Of a stretch of DNA of 36,749 nucleotides, positions 6,005 through 23,630 are shown in pieces; the first letter of the stretch is position 1; each line of letters starts with the position of its first letter. The notes beneath the pieces are model-generated. The model was not told where the DNA came from. It saw only the letters and a program-made list of their open reading frames with translations, and ran no database searches. The stretch spans positions 1 to 36,749 of the forward strand of contig JAJEAH010000006.1 in assembly GCA_022824225.1 (NCBI GenBank), in the 5' to 3' direction. Position numbers and translations under genes: made by a program. Origin of the DNA: Chloroflexota bacterium. Lineage in GTDB: Bacteria; Chloroflexota; UBA11872; VXOZ01.

Positions 6005-6967
6005 TCAGGCCTTCGCGGCGTAGTCAAACTCCCAAAACACTTCTTCCTCACGGAGCACCGTCGGCAGCGCCGGCCAGTCGGCGGCGCCGGTGCGCGCGGC
6101 ATAGAGGTCACGCGCCGCCACTTTTTCGGCCGGGTCGCCGACGGCAACGCGTTTGTCCGGCGGACTCTGCCCGTCACTCTCCAAGCCGTATGCTAGTACC
6201 AGCGCGTTTGGGGGGGCCGTTTCTCGCAGCGAGCGGGCAACGAGCCTCCCCGCGGCGGCCACCGTCTCGTCCCCGCTCTCGCGTGACGGCAGGTAAATCT
6301 CGCGGGGATTCAGTTCCACCAGCACGTCGTTGAGATCGCGCATAATGTGATTGAACGAATACGGAAAGCCAAAGCCCGATCGCAAGATGCGGTAGGGCGT
6401 AACGTTGGGATCGTGCACGCCGTCTTTTTCGGTATAGGGCGACCGGATGACGTGGTCGGGCGTGTTTTCGTCCAGCAGGTGCAAGACACCGTCGGGATAA
6501 GACAAGAATATGAGGTCTTCTGGGTCAATCCCATACGCGCTCGCCGCCACCTTGAGCGCCATTTCTTGGAGCACCGCCGCGCCGTGCAGATATTGGTGGG
6601 GGGCGGGTGTGGTGTCGGCAGGCAAACCGGCCAGCGCTTGAGCAACCGATGTCTGTGCGTCACCGTCTGTAAGGTAGACGACGACGACGCGCTTACCGTG
6701 CGCCAGCGCCTGGTTGATCGTGGCATGGGCCGCCACCACCACGTCGCCCGGCCGCGCGGCAAAGACGACGACGTCCGCCTTGGCAATCGGGTCGGCGTCT
6801 CCGGCGGCGGGCTCCGGCGCCGCAACGGCCGCGGGCCGGAGATTGGGCTGATTGCGCACGGCGTCGTAGAAGCGGCTTAGCCGCTCCTGGCTGCCGGCCG
6901 GGGCGCAGCCCGCCAGCCACAGAACAATGGGCGCAATCAGCAACCACCCACGCGCGCTGTTAGCCAT
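6005..6967 (-). CDS. PIG-L/LmbE-like lipoprotein lacking the metal-binding motifs
   Basis: A 320-residue predicted lipoprotein (lipobox LAGC, lipidated Cys21) whose body resembles the PIG-L deacetylase fold: a VVVFA strand followed by the motif loop, a helix with INQALAHGKRV, then VVVVYLTDGDAQT and a DLIFLSYPDG segment. PIG-L enzymes bind zinc with an AHPDDE motif and a later HxxH. Here the first reads ARPGDV (residues 71-76) and the later region reads RESGDETVAAAGRL (229-242), so the usual His/Asp ligands are missing at both places. It may be a binding protein or an enzyme with another chemistry. Its ATG overlaps the stop of the upstream M55 peptidase gene (TGATG), indicating translational coupling. 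The family call is moderate and the loss of motifs is directly visible. Confidence 0.7.
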   Translation of the reverse strand: MANSARGWLLIAPIVLWLAGCAPAGSQERLSRFYDAVRNQPNLRPAAVAAPEPAAGDADPIAKADVVVFAARPGDVVVAAHATINQALAHGKRVVVVYLTDGDAQTSVAQALAGLPADTTPAPHQYLHGAAVLQEMALKVAASAYGIDPEDLIFLSYPDGVLHLLDENTPDHVIRSPYTEKDGVHDPNVTPYRILRSGFGFPYSFNHIMRDLNDVLVELNPREIYLPSRESGDETVAAAGRLVARSLRETAPPNALVLAYGLESDGQSPPDKRVAVGDPAEKVAARDLYAARTGAADWPALPTVLREEEVFWEFDYAAKA

Positions 6968-11086: not shown

Positions 11087-11815
11087 CTAGCCTCCGGCCA
11101 CTTCCAGGCAGCGCTGGTGGGCCGCGTTCTCCAAGGCGTCATCTAGCGGCGGCAGCGTCGTGACGCCATAGCGGCGCTCCAGCGCGCGTCCCAACAGGTG
11201 GTCCGCGAAGGCGGGGTTCTTCGGCAAGAGCGAACCGTGTAGGTAGGTGCCATAGACGTTCAGCCGCTGCGCGCCTTCCGTGCCGTCTTCGCCATTGTTG
11301 CCAAAGCCGCTGACTACCCGTGCCAGCGCGGACGCGGGATCGCGCAGGTAGGTGCGTCCACCGTGATTTTCAAAGCCTACCAGCTTCTGACCCCGCCATT
11401 CGGTGATGACATTGCCGATGCACCGGGGCCGGTCGGCGCCGGGGTGGACGGTGTACGCGGGCAGCGCCTCGATGCCGCGCAGCTCAGCGCCCGTGTGGTC
11501 GCGGTAGAATTCCCCAAAGAGCTGATACCCGCCGCAGACCGCCAGCACGACGAGTCCATCCTCAATTGCGCTCCGCAATACCGCGTGCTTAGACTCAAAC
11601 AAGTCCTGTGAGGCCAGCAACTGCTCACGGTCTTGTCCGCCGCCAATGAGGAGGAGGTCGAGATCCCCGGCATCCGCCAGGGGGCCAGGATGGATGCCCC
11701 GCACTACCACGTCGATGCCGCGCCAGCGGCAGCGTCGTTCCAGGCAGATTACGTTGCCGCGATCGGCGTACATATTCATGAGTCGTGGATAGAGGTGTCC
11801 GATCACGAGTTTCAT
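11087..11815 (-). CDS. gatD: Lipid II isoglutaminyl synthase, glutamine amidotransferase subunit GatD
   Basis: A 242-residue class-I glutamine amidotransferase of the CobB/CobQ-like group. The nucleophile lies in LAVCGGYQLFGEFY (Cys94, the same number as in Staphylococcus aureus GatD), with the partner His193 in VYGTYLHGSLLPKNP. GatD releases ammonia from glutamine and passes it to MurT, which amidates the alpha-carboxyl of D-Glu in lipid II. Its start overlaps the stop of murT by 4 bases (ATGA), as expected for a stoichiometric complex. The C-terminus (LERRYG...ALENAAHQ) is normal, so the gene is complete. Confidence 0.95.
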   Translation of the reverse strand: MKLVIGHLYPRLMNMYADRGNVICLERRCRWRGIDVVVRGIHPGPLADAGDLDLLLIGGGQDREQLLASQDLFESKHAVLRSAIEDGLVVLAVCGGYQLFGEFYRDHTGAELRGIEALPAYTVHPGADRPRCIGNVITEWRGQKLVGFENHGGRTYLRDPASALARVVSGFGNNGEDGTEGAQRLNVYGTYLHGSLLPKNPAFADHLLGRALERRYGVTTLPPLDDALENAAHQRCLEVAGG

Positions 11816-13227
11816 GGTTCCGCCTCCCAGAATCGGCGTACGAGTCCCCGCTCAGCCCAAACGCTCCGCAACGCCAGCATTCCCGTGTAGGTTGCCAGCA
11901 CGAAGAGCGTGCCGCCGGGCGCTACGCGGGCCAGGGCTTCATCGAAGGCCTGGGCGATGGGCCGCGTAACGGTCACTTCCGCCGCGCCGGTGTACTTCAG
12001 GCGCACGGCCATGTCCTCCGCCCGGCGGCCGCCGGCGGTGAAGGTAGCGTCCGCCAGTTCTTCGAAGTCCACGTCCCATATCCAGGACACATCGTGTCCG
12101 TCCGCGGCCCTATCCTGAAGAATGGCCAGGATGTGCAGCGGACCCTCTTCTGCCACAAGCAGCCGCAAGACCTGGTTCGCGCCAACTGGATTCTTGATGA
12201 GAAGCAGCCACGCGGTGCGCCCTGATACCGCGACCGCTTCGGCGCGGCCAAAGGCGGGCGCGGTGTGTGCCAAGCCTTGGCGGATTGCCTCCGGTTTCAC
12301 CCCTACGTACCACGCCGCGCCGGCCGCTGCCAGCGCATTGTACACATTGTAGAGGCCCGGCACGCCTAGCGTGGCCTGCACGGTCGCTTCCGGGAAGGCC
12401 AGGGTTACGTCCGCGCCGGCCAAGCCGTGCAAGTCTACCTCAGTGGCGCGCACCGCACGCTCCGGGCGGCGCCAACCGCAGGCGTTGCACGTATAAGAGC
12501 CAAGGTGTCCGTAGTAGGCCGCGTTGTAATCCAAGGGCTGCGCGTCGCGCGGGCAGTAGTGGGAATCAGCCGCAAGTTCCACGCCCTCTCGCGCCAAACG
12601 CAGGTCGTCGAGCCCAAAGTAGTGCACCGGGCCGGCCGATTCTTCACCCAGGCTGGCCACCAGGGGATCGTCACCATTGAGGAGCAACGCCGTGGACTCC
12701 GTCAAGCGCGCAAATGCCGTCCGCAGGCCGGCGGCAATCGTCTGAACTTCGCCGTAGCGGTCGAGTTGGTCGCGAAAGAGATTGGTCACCACCACGCAGC
12801 GGGGCCGATGCTGCCGGAGCGCGTGCACGATCGCCGCTTCGTCCAGTTCGAGCACCGCCATACAGGTTGGCGCCAGCCGCAGCCTGCCGTGCCAGGCCGA
12901 ATGCTCGAGCAGCATGCTCAGCACGCCGCGCGTGAGATTCGAGCCGGTGGCATTGTGCAAGACCGGCTGCCCCGCCGCGTTCAGGATGTCGCGCAGCAGC
13001 GCCGCCGTGGTGGTCTTGCCGTTGGTGCCGGTGATGAATATGGCGCCCGCGGGCACCTGGTCAAGCAGGAATCCCAAGAGTGTGGGAGCGACGGACTCCG
13101 CTATCAGCCCCGGCAGCGCCGTGCCGCCGCCGCGCCGCAAACGGCGTGAGACCGCTCCCGCCGCGCGGGCAGCGAGAATCGCCAGGACCCTGCGTAGCGC
13201 GGAAAAAGAAAAGAGCGTATCCACCAC
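11812..13227 (-). CDS. murT: Lipid II isoglutaminyl synthase, Mur-ligase subunit MurT
   Basis: A 471-residue Mur-ligase relative. The ATP-binding loop is ITGTNGKTTTAALLRD (residues 65-80), then HNATGSNLTRGV (91-102) and VVVTNLFRDQLDRYGE (146-160). A zinc-ribbon insertion follows, and the C-terminal DUF1727 domain carries DGHDVSWIWDVDFEEL, whose Asp supports the GatD active site in known complexes. In well-known MurT proteins the ribbon has four Cys; here it shows Cys225, Cys247 and Cys250, and the fourth position is Asp228 (CPRD). The start is a GTG with GAGAAG upstream; the second codon is also GTG and cannot be excluded. It is followed by overlapping gatD and preceded by the c-di-AMP receptor gene 269 bases away. 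Confidence 0.95.
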   Translation of the reverse strand: MVDTLFSFSALRRVLAILAARAAGAVSRRLRRGGGTALPGLIAESVAPTLLGFLLDQVPAGAIFITGTNGKTTTAALLRDILNAAGQPVLHNATGSNLTRGVLSMLLEHSAWHGRLRLAPTCMAVLELDEAAIVHALRQHRPRCVVVTNLFRDQLDRYGEVQTIAAGLRTAFARLTESTALLLNGDDPLVASLGEESAGPVHYFGLDDLRLAREGVELAADSHYCPRDAQPLDYNAAYYGHLGSYTCNACGWRRPERAVRATEVDLHGLAGADVTLAFPEATVQATLGVPGLYNVYNALAAAGAAWYVGVKPEAIRQGLAHTAPAFGRAEAVAVSGRTAWLLLIKNPVGANQVLRLLVAEEGPLHILAILQDRAADGHDVSWIWDVDFEELADATFTAGGRRAEDMAVRLKYTGAAEVTVTRPIAQAFDEALARVAPGGTLFVLATYTGMLALRSVWAERGLVRRFWEAEP

Positions 13228-13330
13228 GTCCGCTTCTCATCGCACTTGACCCAACACCAAGGGCTAGTTCAGAAAGGAATAAGAGGGGCTGATCGAGAAA
13301 AGCACACGCGCAACCATGCCCACGCCCGCA

Positions 13331-13410
13331 TTGTGAACATACCGGCAAACGCACACACCTGCGAACGCACTTGCTTGCGGTAGCGCTTGCCGGCGAACAC
13401 CCGTTCACAA
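13331..13410 (-). repeat. Nested long inverted repeat upstream of murT
   Basis: An outer pair TTGTGAAC (13331-13338) and GTTCACAA (13403-13410) encloses an inner pair CCGGCAAACGC (13342-13352) and GCGCTTGCCGG (13383-13393; one mismatch). The loop contains short direct repeats of the form GCGAACGCAC. The element would fold in the transcript between the c-di-AMP receptor gene and murT. No T-tract follows, so an attenuator or processing site is only a possibility. Confidence 0.45.
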
Positions 13411-13496
13411 GCGCACCCATACCAAGCCAAGGAAGTTGCCGTGGGCCGCGCATGTGTCGTTTGCGCGGGCGGATCAAGGCGATATGGTTGCCCGGA

Positions 13497-13838
13497 TCAG
13501 AAGCGTTCGAACCGCTCGACGTCGAGCACGAATATGACCGCGCCGCCCACCTGCACTTCCACCGGATAGGGCATATAGAACTCGCCCGGTTCCATGGCTG
13601 GCGGCATGGGATTGATGTACTGCATGCGGGTCGTGCAATTGCGGCGTACGATGACCAGGACGTCGCTGACCCGTTCTTCCTCCACGCCAACTAGGACGGT
13701 GGCATTGCCCCGCCGCAAGAAGCCGCCGGCCGTATTGATGCGAGTCGCGCCGAAACCTTCCTGCACCAAGCTATCGATAAGATTCCCCGCATCCTCATCT
13801 TGCACGATCGCGACAACAAGCTTCATGCTATCGTCCAT
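13497..13838 (-). CDS. darA: Cyclic-di-AMP receptor, PII-like (DarA/PstA family)
   Basis: A 113-residue PII-like trimeric signalling protein that binds cyclic-di-AMP. The sequence follows the family closely: MKLVVAIVQDEDAGNLIDSL, then GFGATRINTAGGFLRRGNATVLVGVEEERV with the nucleotide-binding GGFLRxGN loop, and MPYPVEVQVGGAVIFVLDVERFERF at the C-terminus. The ATG at 13838 is chosen because GAGGAG lies 9 bases upstream; a second Met four codons in is where many relatives begin. It lies between icd (195 bases upstream) and murT-gatD on the same strand. The target it controls is not known from sequence. Confidence 0.93.
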   Translation of the reverse strand: MDDSMKLVVAIVQDEDAGNLIDSLVQEGFGATRINTAGGFLRRGNATVLVGVEEERVSDVLVIVRRNCTTRMQYINPMPPAMEPGEFYMPYPVEVQVGGAVIFVLDVERFERF

Positions 13839-18745: not shown

Positions 18746-20563
18746 CTACTGATCGGGCGGCGGCAAGAGCCAGGCAAAGAGGCGGTTTTCGTGGTCTAGG
18801 GCCACTAGCAGGCTGCCATCCGTTGCCACGGCAAAATCTCGAATTGGCGCCAGTGGGCTCACCGCGCCCAAGATGCTCCCATCGAAGCGCAGCACAACCA
18901 GACGGATGTCTTCGGAGAGCCCAACCAAGTAGTCGCGATTGGCCACGATCCGCGTAACCGACATGGCGTCCTGGGTCCAGAGCCTCCGGCCGTCCTGGTA
19001 GAAAGCCGTGATGCCCTGCGCGCCGCCGACGTAGATAATGTCTCCCGGCTGAGACACGGTCAGCGCGCGCCCGCGCGCGGACTCCTGCCACTCGATACGT
19101 TGCGTAGCGATGTCGAACTGGCTGACGTGCCGGTCGGTGAGCACGACGAGCTTCCGATCGATCCCGGCGAACGTGACCCCGATGACCGGTTCGGCCAAGT
19201 CGGCGCCCATCTGCTTCTCGCCGCGTTCATTGAGCACAAGGACGTGGAATCTGCCTTCACCATTGGCTCCCAATGCGACGGGTGTCCCATTGGACGCAAG
19301 ATCGAAACTGTTGACGCCCAGCGATCCCGGCGTCACCCAGGCCAGGCCGCCGCGGTCAAAGCCAAATACTTGCCCCATGCCGCCTTCATTGGACGTAGCC
19401 GCGACCATGAATTGCCCTTGGCTGCCGACGGCGGCCCGCTCCAAGATGACGTCATACGCATCCAGGGCTTCGTGCCACGCCAGGACACCGTCGCCACCGA
19501 GAAACTGAGCGCCGACACCGGCGGCAAAGATCCCGTTACCTTCTCGCGTCGCCGCCATGGCAAACGTGGGCAGAGAGAAGCGCTCGATCCACTGGAGTTC
19601 GCCCTGCGCCGTGCGGCGCTCGATCGTCCCGCCGGTATCGCCGACCAACACGGCGCCGCCGTCAGGGGAGAGCGCGATGAACTGCGCGGGCCAATCCAGG
19701 ACGTGTGACCAGACGTGCTCTCGCCACGTGCGGCCCTGCACAGGCGCCAATTCCGAAACGCTGAACTCATAGATCGTATCGACATGGATAGCGGCCGGCA
19801 CGCCGCGGTCCTGCCACTGCGCCGCCGCCGCCTGGGCCTCCGAGGCAACGCGCAGCGGCGCCAGCCAGACTGTGACCGGGTCATCTTCTTCGACTGCCGC
19901 CCCAAACGAGGCTGCCGCGTTCACGGCGTCGCGAGCCTCTTCTTCGTTGGCGAATGGCCCCAGCGCGATGCGGTACGCCTCAACTTGACTGAATGAAACA
20001 TCCACGCGACCGGCTTGTTGATAGAGATCACGCAGCGCTGGCGCATCCGGCAGAGCGGTGGTCTCCAGGAACGCGCCTAGTTGCGCGTGCGCCTGCGTGA
20101 GTTGGTCGTAAGCTGCGGCTAGAGCGCCCTCGTCGCCGGCGTCCACGTAGCGGCGAAAGCCGCTGGCGGCGCGAGTCAGCGGATCGACCGCCGCCAGCAG
20201 TCCGTCAGACGCGCCGCCAGAACCGATGAGCGTGATGTCCACAACCTGCTGGGACAACGCCTGGATTTCAGGGACGAGAAAGTCAAGGGCAACGCGGTAG
20301 TCGCCGGGAGGCGAACCGTCGCGCAAGAATGCCAGGTTTTCGACATTGAGGCGCCGCAGTATGTAGATGGCGTCACGAGTAATGTGCGCCATGCGGGCGT
20401 TGGTCTGATCCGTGGCCGCGGTGGAACCTACGGCCGGGGCAGAGGACGAGCCCGAAGAACCGCAACCGGCGGCAAGCCCGAGCAGCAGCGTGACTACGGC
20501 CAGCGCACCCGCGATGCGGCCCGCGCCGGACAAGTCAGAAATGGACGTGACACTGCTAGGCAC
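18746..20563 (-). CDS. Lipoprotein with SPOR-like region and C-terminal beta-propeller
   Basis: A 605-residue predicted lipoprotein (lipobox LAAGC, lipidated Cys34, then a Gly/Ser linker). Residues 55-190 look helical. Residues 195-262 read as an alpha/beta repeat (YRIALGPFANEEEARDAV ... VWLAPLRVASEAQAAAAQWQ) like the SPOR peptidoglycan-binding domain. Residues 285-605 form repeated strands with the PQQ/WD-like pattern ALSPDGGAVLVGDTGGTIERR, SQGQFMVAATSNEGG, GDIIYVGGAQGITAFYQDGRRLWTQD, ending in a LFAWLLPPPDQ tail. The GTG start has AGGA 9 bases upstream. It lies 11 bases after the TPR gene, so the two form an operon. Function unknown; a wall-bound sensor or scaffold is an inference. Confidence 0.82.
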   Translation of the reverse strand: MPSSVTSISDLSGAGRIAGALAVVTLLLGLAAGCGSSGSSSAPAVGSTAATDQTNARMAHITRDAIYILRRLNVENLAFLRDGSPPGDYRVALDFLVPEIQALSQQVVDITLIGSGGASDGLLAAVDPLTRAASGFRRYVDAGDEGALAAAYDQLTQAHAQLGAFLETTALPDAPALRDLYQQAGRVDVSFSQVEAYRIALGPFANEEEARDAVNAAASFGAAVEEDDPVTVWLAPLRVASEAQAAAAQWQDRGVPAAIHVDTIYEFSVSELAPVQGRTWREHVWSHVLDWPAQFIALSPDGGAVLVGDTGGTIERRTAQGELQWIERFSLPTFAMAATREGNGIFAAGVGAQFLGGDGVLAWHEALDAYDVILERAAVGSQGQFMVAATSNEGGMGQVFGFDRGGLAWVTPGSLGVNSFDLASNGTPVALGANGEGRFHVLVLNERGEKQMGADLAEPVIGVTFAGIDRKLVVLTDRHVSQFDIATQRIEWQESARGRALTVSQPGDIIYVGGAQGITAFYQDGRRLWTQDAMSVTRIVANRDYLVGLSEDIRLVVLRFDGSILGAVSPLAPIRDFAVATDGSLLVALDHENRLFAWLLPPPDQ

Positions 20564-20574
20564 GACACGTCGTC

Positions 20575-21387
20575 CTAGATTTCGCCCTCCCCAATCGGCA
20601 CGTCCTCCAGCTCCACGAGATCGCTCTCCACGTCGGCCCAGTCGCCCGACTCCGGATTCCCCGCCAGCGTCTCACTCCCCAAGTCGACTGCCGACTGCCG
20701 CAGACGCGCCAGACGCAGACTCTGCGCGCGGCTCTGGTTCGGGAACGAGTGCCGGCCCACTTGGCTTGCGTGTTGGTAGGTCTCCTTTATGACAATGTAT
20801 ACGTCGCCTTGCTGGATGCCCACGACCGCGGCCGCATACCGATTGCCGGCTTCCATCAGCGCGGCCAGCCGCTGCGCCAGGGCGGCGCCAAGCTGACCAA
20901 GGGGCTGTCCGCCGCGATTCAAAACCCGCATGCTTCTGCCCTGCATCTCCAGACGCAGGGGTGCGCCGGGCAAAGCCAGCACGTCGCCCTGCTTCCCTGG
21001 CAGTGGCAGCACCTTAACGATGGTGGTCTTGCCAGACTCCGCAATGAATATATCCGCCGGCACGCGCGGGGTGGCGTCCTCATGGCCGCTTGCGCAATCG
21101 GCGTCAAAGGCGGTTTCCAGCCTCAGCAGATTGCGGGCGGCTATGGCGTTCCCTGGATCGAGGGCAAGCGCTTGGCGATAGCTCTCCTTCGCTTCCGGCA
21201 GGAGACCCAGCTCCCACTGCGCTTTACCCAGACGATTACGGGCGTCCACGTCATCCGGGCACTGCCGAACGATGGAACGGTTGATCTTCTCGGCTTCCGC
21301 CCAGCGCTGACGCGCGGCGCACTGGATGGCTTGCCGCACCCAGTACTCTTTGAAGCGGTTACGGTCGGTGCTCATAACTTGTGACAT
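20575..21387 (-). CDS. TPR protein with C-terminal HIRAN-like domain
   Basis: A 270-residue soluble protein. The N-terminus has two TPR units (RWAEAEKINRSIVRQCPDDVDARNRLGKAQWELG and LPEAKESYRQALALDPGNAIAARNLL, given here in pieces spanning residues 30-90). After a linker there is an alpha/beta domain with GDVLALPGAPLRLEMQGRSM, LGQLGAALAQRLAALMEAGNRYAAAVVGIQQGDVYIVIKET, which recalls HIRAN-like nucleic-acid-binding modules, though this is a weak resemblance. The acidic tail ends DVPIGEGEI. The frame is open to a GTG at 21402, but ATG 21387 is preferred because GAGG lies 9 bases before it. It is the first gene of an operon with the SPOR-propeller lipoprotein. Confidence 0.75.
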   Translation of the reverse strand: MSQVMSTDRNRFKEYWVRQAIQCAARQRWAEAEKINRSIVRQCPDDVDARNRLGKAQWELGLLPEAKESYRQALALDPGNAIAARNLLRLETAFDADCASGHEDATPRVPADIFIAESGKTTIVKVLPLPGKQGDVLALPGAPLRLEMQGRSMRVLNRGGQPLGQLGAALAQRLAALMEAGNRYAAAVVGIQQGDVYIVIKETYQHASQVGRHSFPNQSRAQSLRLARLRQSAVDLGSETLAGNPESGDWADVESDLVELEDVPIGEGEI

Positions 21388-21585: not shown

Positions 21586-21613
21586 ACTATAGCATAGGAA
21601 ATCTCGGAGTCAC
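21586..21613 (-). promoter_or_regulatory. Extended -10 promoter of the TPR/SPOR-propeller operon
   Basis: On the minus strand: GTGACT (-35, 21608-21613), a 16-base spacer and TGC-TATAGT (extended -10, 21586-21594). The predicted start is near 21579, giving a leader of about 190 bases before ATG 21387. Confidence 0.5.
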
Positions 21614-23264: not shown

Positions 23265-23630
23265 ATGAAGTTCTTCAAACGACTCTTGTCCGGGGCAGGC
23301 GGCGAATCCGACCCCGGTGACGACCCCAATCTGTTTTGGTATTACGTGCGCTGCGGCAGGTGCGGCGAGACCGTTGCCGTGATGGCGCGTAGGGGCTACG
23401 ACCTAGTGGAAGAGTACGAGGAATCCGGCGGCACCGATGCGCCTTCCGGCTACAGCCTCTACAAGGACGTCATGGGCCGCAGCGATACGTGCTTCCAGCA
23501 GATGCGCATCGAGATTCGCTTCAACACGAGCTACGAGGAGCAGAGCCGGCACATCGAGGGTGGCCGCTTCATCACAGAGGAAGAATTCCGGGCCTCCGCC
23601 AACGAAGCGGACCAAGACGAGCCGAAGTAG
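23265..23630 (+). CDS. Small conserved-looking protein with CxxC motif
   Basis: A 121-residue protein. Its N-terminal half has a zinc-ribbon-like YYVRCGRCGETVAV (Cys30, Cys33), and a third cysteine lies in SDTCFQQMRIEIRFN (Cys76). The C-terminus has RHIEGGRFITEEEFRASA and an acidic tail. From memory it resembles short zinc-ribbon hypothetical proteins found across Chloroflexota, which would support the taxonomic guess, but this is not verified. The ATG has GGGAG about 11 bases upstream. It sits inside the polysaccharide cluster, but with gaps of about 280-320 bases on both sides it is probably transcribed by itself. Function unknown. Confidence 0.72.
   Translation: MKFFKRLLSGAGGESDPGDDPNLFWYYVRCGRCGETVAVMARRGYDLVEEYEESGGTDAPSGYSLYKDVMGRSDTCFQQMRIEIRFNTSYEEQSRHIEGGRFITEEEFRASANEADQDEPK

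Follow-up and report, generated by a model that had tools for sequence, protein, structure and literature searches.

Two adjacent genes of a Chloroflexota bacterium (UBA11872; VXOZ01) raise the question of whether a conserved gene pairing stands for a shared function of the two products. One gene encodes a protein with tetratricopeptide-type repeats (the TPR protein), the other a putative lipoprotein, here called LIPO, and an earlier, sequence-only reading had joined them in a wall-linked envelope complex with an intracellular partner. The window, that is, the whole stretch of DNA analyzed, comprises 36,749 nucleotides (positions 1 to 36,749 of contig JAJEAH010000006.1, assembly GCA_022824225.1). 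Both genes lie on the minus strand, both are real and conserved, and the ORF coordinates agree with the 11 bases that had been reported between them (Table 1). This gap is tied to the GTG start of LIPO; LIPO could instead start at a TTG 30 nt downstream, and in five relatives of the same genus, LIPO starts at a conserved position 41 to 42 nt past the TPR stop codon, where the window has TTG. For the TPR gene, an upstream GTG would give a protein of 275 aa. A scan for promoter-like sites, by consensus match only, found one upstream of the TPR gene (0.3 expected) and none between the TPR gene and LIPO; we infer that the two genes are co-transcribed.

Table 1. Features of the TPR-LIPO locus (window coordinates)
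Feature	Coordinates	Strand	Basis or remark
LIPO, lipoprotein precursor	18746..20563	-	605 aa from GTG
Signal peptide of LIPO, Sec-type, ends in lipobox LAAG-C (Cys34)	20465..20563	-	Cys invariant in homologues
N-terminal helical region of LIPO (mature 14-151)	20012..20425	-	Predicted helices (AlphaFold2)
SPOR domain of LIPO (mature 153-240, precursor 186-273)	19745..20008	-	Pfam, region profile, AlphaFold2
Beta-propeller of LIPO (mature 250-566)	18767..19717	-	32 predicted strands (AlphaFold2)
TPR protein	20575..21387	-	270 aa from ATG; Pfam TPR matches, conserved
HIRAN-like C-terminal beta domain of TPR protein	20773..21045	-	PF08797 matches in homologues
Promoter-like site GTGACT-16-TATAGT, TG before second hexamer	21586..21613	-	Upstream of TPR gene; consensus match only

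In a sample of 101 related genomes, LIPO was present in 30 and the TPR gene, as a single copy per genome, in 60. LIPO was found in the families f1 (the window's genus), f3, f4, and f5, which belong to the class of the window; more distant LIPO genes were found in f33 and f47, two families from a different class. The upstream flank of the pair carries, on the opposite strand, polysaccharide glycosyltransferases and a Wzy_C protein, and this polysaccharide cluster also adjoins LIPO in f3 and f4; downstream are a nucleotidyltransferase and a methyltransferase. Some other genes of the window deserve mention. Adjoining the Wzy_C gene is the gene of a 121-aa protein without a Pfam match (23265-23630, plus strand), one of 14 cluster members that occur in the polysaccharide loci of f1, f3, and f4. 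A cyclic-di-AMP receptor (PF06153) is encoded beside MurT and a GATase_3 amidotransferase (GatD-like; 11087-13838, minus strand), and these three are kept together within the genus. Furthermore, a PIG-L family protein (6005-6967, minus strand) has a lipobox-like start (MANSARGWLLIAPIVLWLAGCAP).

The designation of LIPO as a lipoprotein is borne out by its signal peptide, the lipobox Cys of which is invariant across 28 homologues (as read from the alignment), and the protein is presumably lipidated. The mature length is nearly constant in these homologues (563 to 582 aa), and no transmembrane helix is left after processing. An AlphaFold2 model computed from the 28-homologue alignment (pLDDT 87.6, pTM 0.70) predicts helices at mature residues 14-47, 53-80, 84-109, 112-135, and 141-151, in agreement with the alpha-helical region described before, and the 32 predicted strands of the C-terminal part are read as eight four-stranded blades. 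A PDB search with the LIPO sequence alone gave no match; in a Foldseek search of the PDB, BamB came out best (4imm; E = 3.8e-17; TM score of 0.73, normalized to the target), and the Pfam model PQQ_2 matches 18 of the 28 homologues. The propeller seen by the sequence-only reading is thus recovered. The two groups of LIPO sequences align with each other over all three regions (pairwise hhalign probabilities of 69% for the helical region, 97% for the SPOR region, and 98% for the propeller).

The best structural match could mean that LIPO, as a subunit of the BamB type, belongs to a machine for assembling outer-membrane proteins, since BamB, a PQQ_2 propeller lipoprotein, is like LIPO in being a lipoprotein with an eight-bladed propeller. 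However, no gene of the Omp85/BamA family (PF01103) was detected in the own genome or in 40 relatives (0 of 41), whereas the control set was positive in 7 of 14 genomes, and BamB, to our knowledge, has neither the SPOR nor the helical domain that LIPO has in addition. Membership in the BamB type was therefore rejected as very improbable.

The middle region of LIPO has the order of elements of a SPOR domain. According to AlphaFold2 and DSSP, a strand (153-171), a helix (174-183), two strands (190-192 and 197-200), a second helix (207-219), and a last strand (224-240) follow one another, which is the RNP-like strand-helix-strand-strand-helix-strand arrangement of SPOR domains, judged by the order of elements. 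The stretch singled out earlier as SPOR-like, residues 195 to 262, falls inside this region. The Pfam model SPOR (PF05036) scores the window protein at 20.7 bits as precursor and 20.9 bits in its mature form, against a gathering cut-off of 21, and matches 13 of 28 LIPO homologues at E values up to 0.1; among the f33 relatives, the first one scanned reached 31.4 bits, and six of six matched (best E = 9.1e-8). A profile of the SPOR region searched against the PDB found CwlC (1x60) as the best match, with an E value of 4.3e-5, and FtsN (1uta) with 0.007; a profile made from f33 only still found CwlC (E = 0.0014). Membership of this region in the SPOR fold is supported, and the ligand is a separate question, because the usual ligand contacts are missing. 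In RlpA, a conserved Gln and a conserved Arg contact the denuded glycan, and most of the other contacts are made via the backbone (PMC6895207). At the position of the Gln (FtsN Q251, RlpA Q270), mapped like that of the Arg via the CwlC and FtsN alignments and partly by hand, the window protein has Ala, and relatives have Val, Leu, or Thr; the position of the Arg (FtsN R285, RlpA R309) is Thr in the window protein.

It is therefore imaginable that the region has kept a SPOR-like fold but has given up glycan binding and now mediates contacts between proteins beneath the propeller. The missing Gln and Arg would fit this, as would the score of the window protein below the Pfam cut-off and the shortened SPOR region of LIPO in f5. 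On the other hand, a contact made mostly by the backbone asks little of particular side chains, true SPOR domains are poorly conserved in sequence (PMC6895207), and the f33 members keep stronger SPOR scores. We regard such a degenerate domain as rather unlikely, though to be reckoned with, and consider the SPOR domain of LIPO, as far as can be read from its sequence, likely to be cell-wall-binding.

The partner protein consists of TPR helices (residues ~1-99), a HIRAN-like beta domain (~115-205), and an acidic disordered tail (~226-270); an acidic tail follows the beta domain in most homologues. TPR_16, TPR_11, and TPR_14 are all above the Pfam cut-off. The AlphaFold2 model is less confident than that of LIPO (mean pLDDT 75.4, pTM 0.47) and predicts, for the beta domain, strands at 121-127, 143-149, 152-156, and 162-165, a helix at 168-179, and strands at 183-192 and 195-204. 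Because the protein has no signal peptide, it is predicted to be cytoplasmic. The Pfam scan gave no match of HIRAN (PF08797) to the window protein itself, but it did so for 3 of 23 homologues (best E = 0.0015), and the homologue of genome G166 reached 24.1 bits against a cut-off of 24.7. An hhalign comparison of the C-terminal region with a self-made HIRAN alignment was weak (raw E = 0.005, probability of 7%) but in register, and unrelated regions scored lower. A Foldseek search with the TPR model returned, among the matches listed, TPR-type helical proteins only. Of the claim that a TPR protein carries a HIRAN-like domain at its C terminus, the first part stands and the second survives as a remote likeness only. 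The domain differs from known HIRAN proteins (HLTF and bacterial ones) in its fusion to TPRs and an acidic tail, and most of the homologues lack the motif E-P-x-N-P-x-D-x-N-A of the HIRAN set. Nevertheless, the likeness in some members means that the protein is possibly linked to nucleic acids. In the G166 homologue (L142), which contains an insertion, the HIRAN-type motif (DDANAIDVY) is easier to recognize than in other members; this protein forms a bridge sequence to HIRAN.

In all 35 genomes found to have both genes, the two share a strand, with the TPR gene immediately 5' of LIPO. Six of these genomes belong to f1 and 29 to f33 and f47, two families of another class, and several of the f33/f47 loci permit a 4-base overlap of the TPR stop and the LIPO start. 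Where no locus was fetched, the pairing rests on match coordinates, and as the genomes are related, 35 is no count of independent events. The TPR-LIPO pair is therefore an old and repeatedly kept arrangement, and the linkage on which the sequence-only reading depended is found outside the window as well; a restriction of this linkage to the genus of the window, considered earlier, was rejected once the f33/f47 pairs had been found. Shortly 3' of LIPO, f33 has a 790-aa protein without a Pfam match (L106:8885-11257, plus strand, and its f33 homologues), which is homologous to the product of a 942-aa gene 3' of the TPR gene in L078.

The two genes also occur apart. A sensitive TPR profile found no TPR gene in 26 genomes of f3, f4, and f5, 24 of which carry LIPO, and in 15 of 15 loci examined in these families, LIPO follows directly after a miaB-like gene. 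Conversely, much of the phylum has the TPR gene but no LIPO: seven of nine f2 genomes have it, with no LIPO among the matches listed, and 20 TPR loci from lineages other than those with LIPO, searched for a diverged LIPO, yielded none. Elsewhere, a miaB-like gene of this kind often precedes the TPR gene, or the TPR gene has gyrA, a nifU-like gene, lon, uvrB, or rpsO/pnp nearby (neighbors identified from the start of their sequences and from the clusters to which they belong). The adjacencies miaB-LIPO, TPR-LIPO, and miaB-TPR were each seen pairwise in different lineages, and no locus with all three was found among those examined. LIPO after miaB without TPR and TPR after miaB without LIPO suggest that a miaB-TPR-LIPO cluster existed ancestrally and lost members lineage by lineage, which would be the simplest account.

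These distributions bear on the proposed envelope complex, in which LIPO outside and the TPR protein inside would be joined by a putative membrane protein. The recurrence of the adjacency in two classes is what such a complex would predict. However, with a TPR protein that has no signal peptide and a LIPO that has no membrane span after processing, a direct complex would be without a physical bridge; the two would reside on opposite sides of the membrane, no gene for a bridging protein accompanies theirs, either one is found in genomes that lack the other, and the neighbors of the TPR gene elsewhere are housekeeping genes. We consider the complex improbable and, since there is neither a common compartment nor a bridging membrane protein encoded alongside, favor LIPO as an independent wall-associated scaffold.

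Another way to read the pairing is that the TPR protein is a cytoplasmic helper, a chaperone or escort, of LIPO before Sec export that became dispensable and was lost where LIPO switched to Tat, a pathway for proteins that are already folded when exported. The invariant gene order in genomes with both genes and the possible stop/start overlaps in f33/f47 would suit a helper. Furthermore, a twin Arg precedes the hydrophobic core in 21 of 21 LIPO signal peptides examined from f3 and f4, compared to 0 of 6 in f1, and it is f3 and f4 that are without TPR. However, a protein that is common in genomes without LIPO is not dedicated to it; f5 is also without TPR, yet one of its two LIPO proteins has no RR; the correlation may reflect a single evolutionary event; the RR motifs were located by pattern and not by a signal-peptide predictor; and a HIRAN-like domain suggests a role with nucleic acid rather than in export. 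A helper of this kind appears unlikely to us, and we would give little credence to its full form, a TPR/HIRAN-like protein co-translated with a SPOR-propeller lipoprotein, aiding its Sec export and lost upon the switch to Tat. If true, a nucleic-acid-type domain would be used in lipoprotein biogenesis. Independently of this, the LIPO homologues of f3 and f4 (L007-L027) are of interest for combining twin-Arg and lipobox in their signal peptides, those of the window's genus being Sec-type.

The model that we prefer, with about even chances of being right, is that LIPO is a wall-associated scaffold lipoprotein and that the TPR protein, cytoplasmic and of older origin, stands apart from it. LIPO would leave the cytoplasm, acquire its lipid at Cys34, and stay anchored on the external side of the membrane. 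There, the helical region may act as a stalk, and the SPOR domain may engage glycan strands of peptidoglycan, perhaps those stripped strands that are concentrated where cells divide; the eight-bladed propeller could then offer a platform for wall or surface-glycan enzymes. LIPO would thus work like other SPOR localizers, with a presumed ligand and location. The TPR/HIRAN-like protein would be co-transcribed with LIPO because both descend from the proposed miaB-TPR-LIPO cluster, from which different members were lost in each lineage.

Like FtsN, DamX, DedD, RlpA, and CwlC, LIPO has secondary structure in SPOR order, a recognizable profile, and a predicted extracytoplasmic placing, and it would share with RlpA the lipid anchor. 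It differs from all five in the absence of the usual Gln and Arg contacts and in the position of the SPOR domain, which is in the middle of LIPO and at the protein end in the others; furthermore, we know of no beta-propeller in any of them. A literature search of limited coverage found no description of a SPOR-propeller lipoprotein. The combination that the sequence-only reading did not recognize is real and recurs in other families: LIPO is a new combination of known domains.

Envelope biology of the phylum is little known. Pfam SPOR was detected in only 2 of the 101 sampled genomes, by a search too insensitive to see the LIPO of the window. Given this rarity, a family of SPOR-like lipoproteins that spans two classes is a candidate wall or division factor, and the distribution of LIPO and TPR offers simple tests of whether genes stay paired because their products work together or because of the history of their operon.
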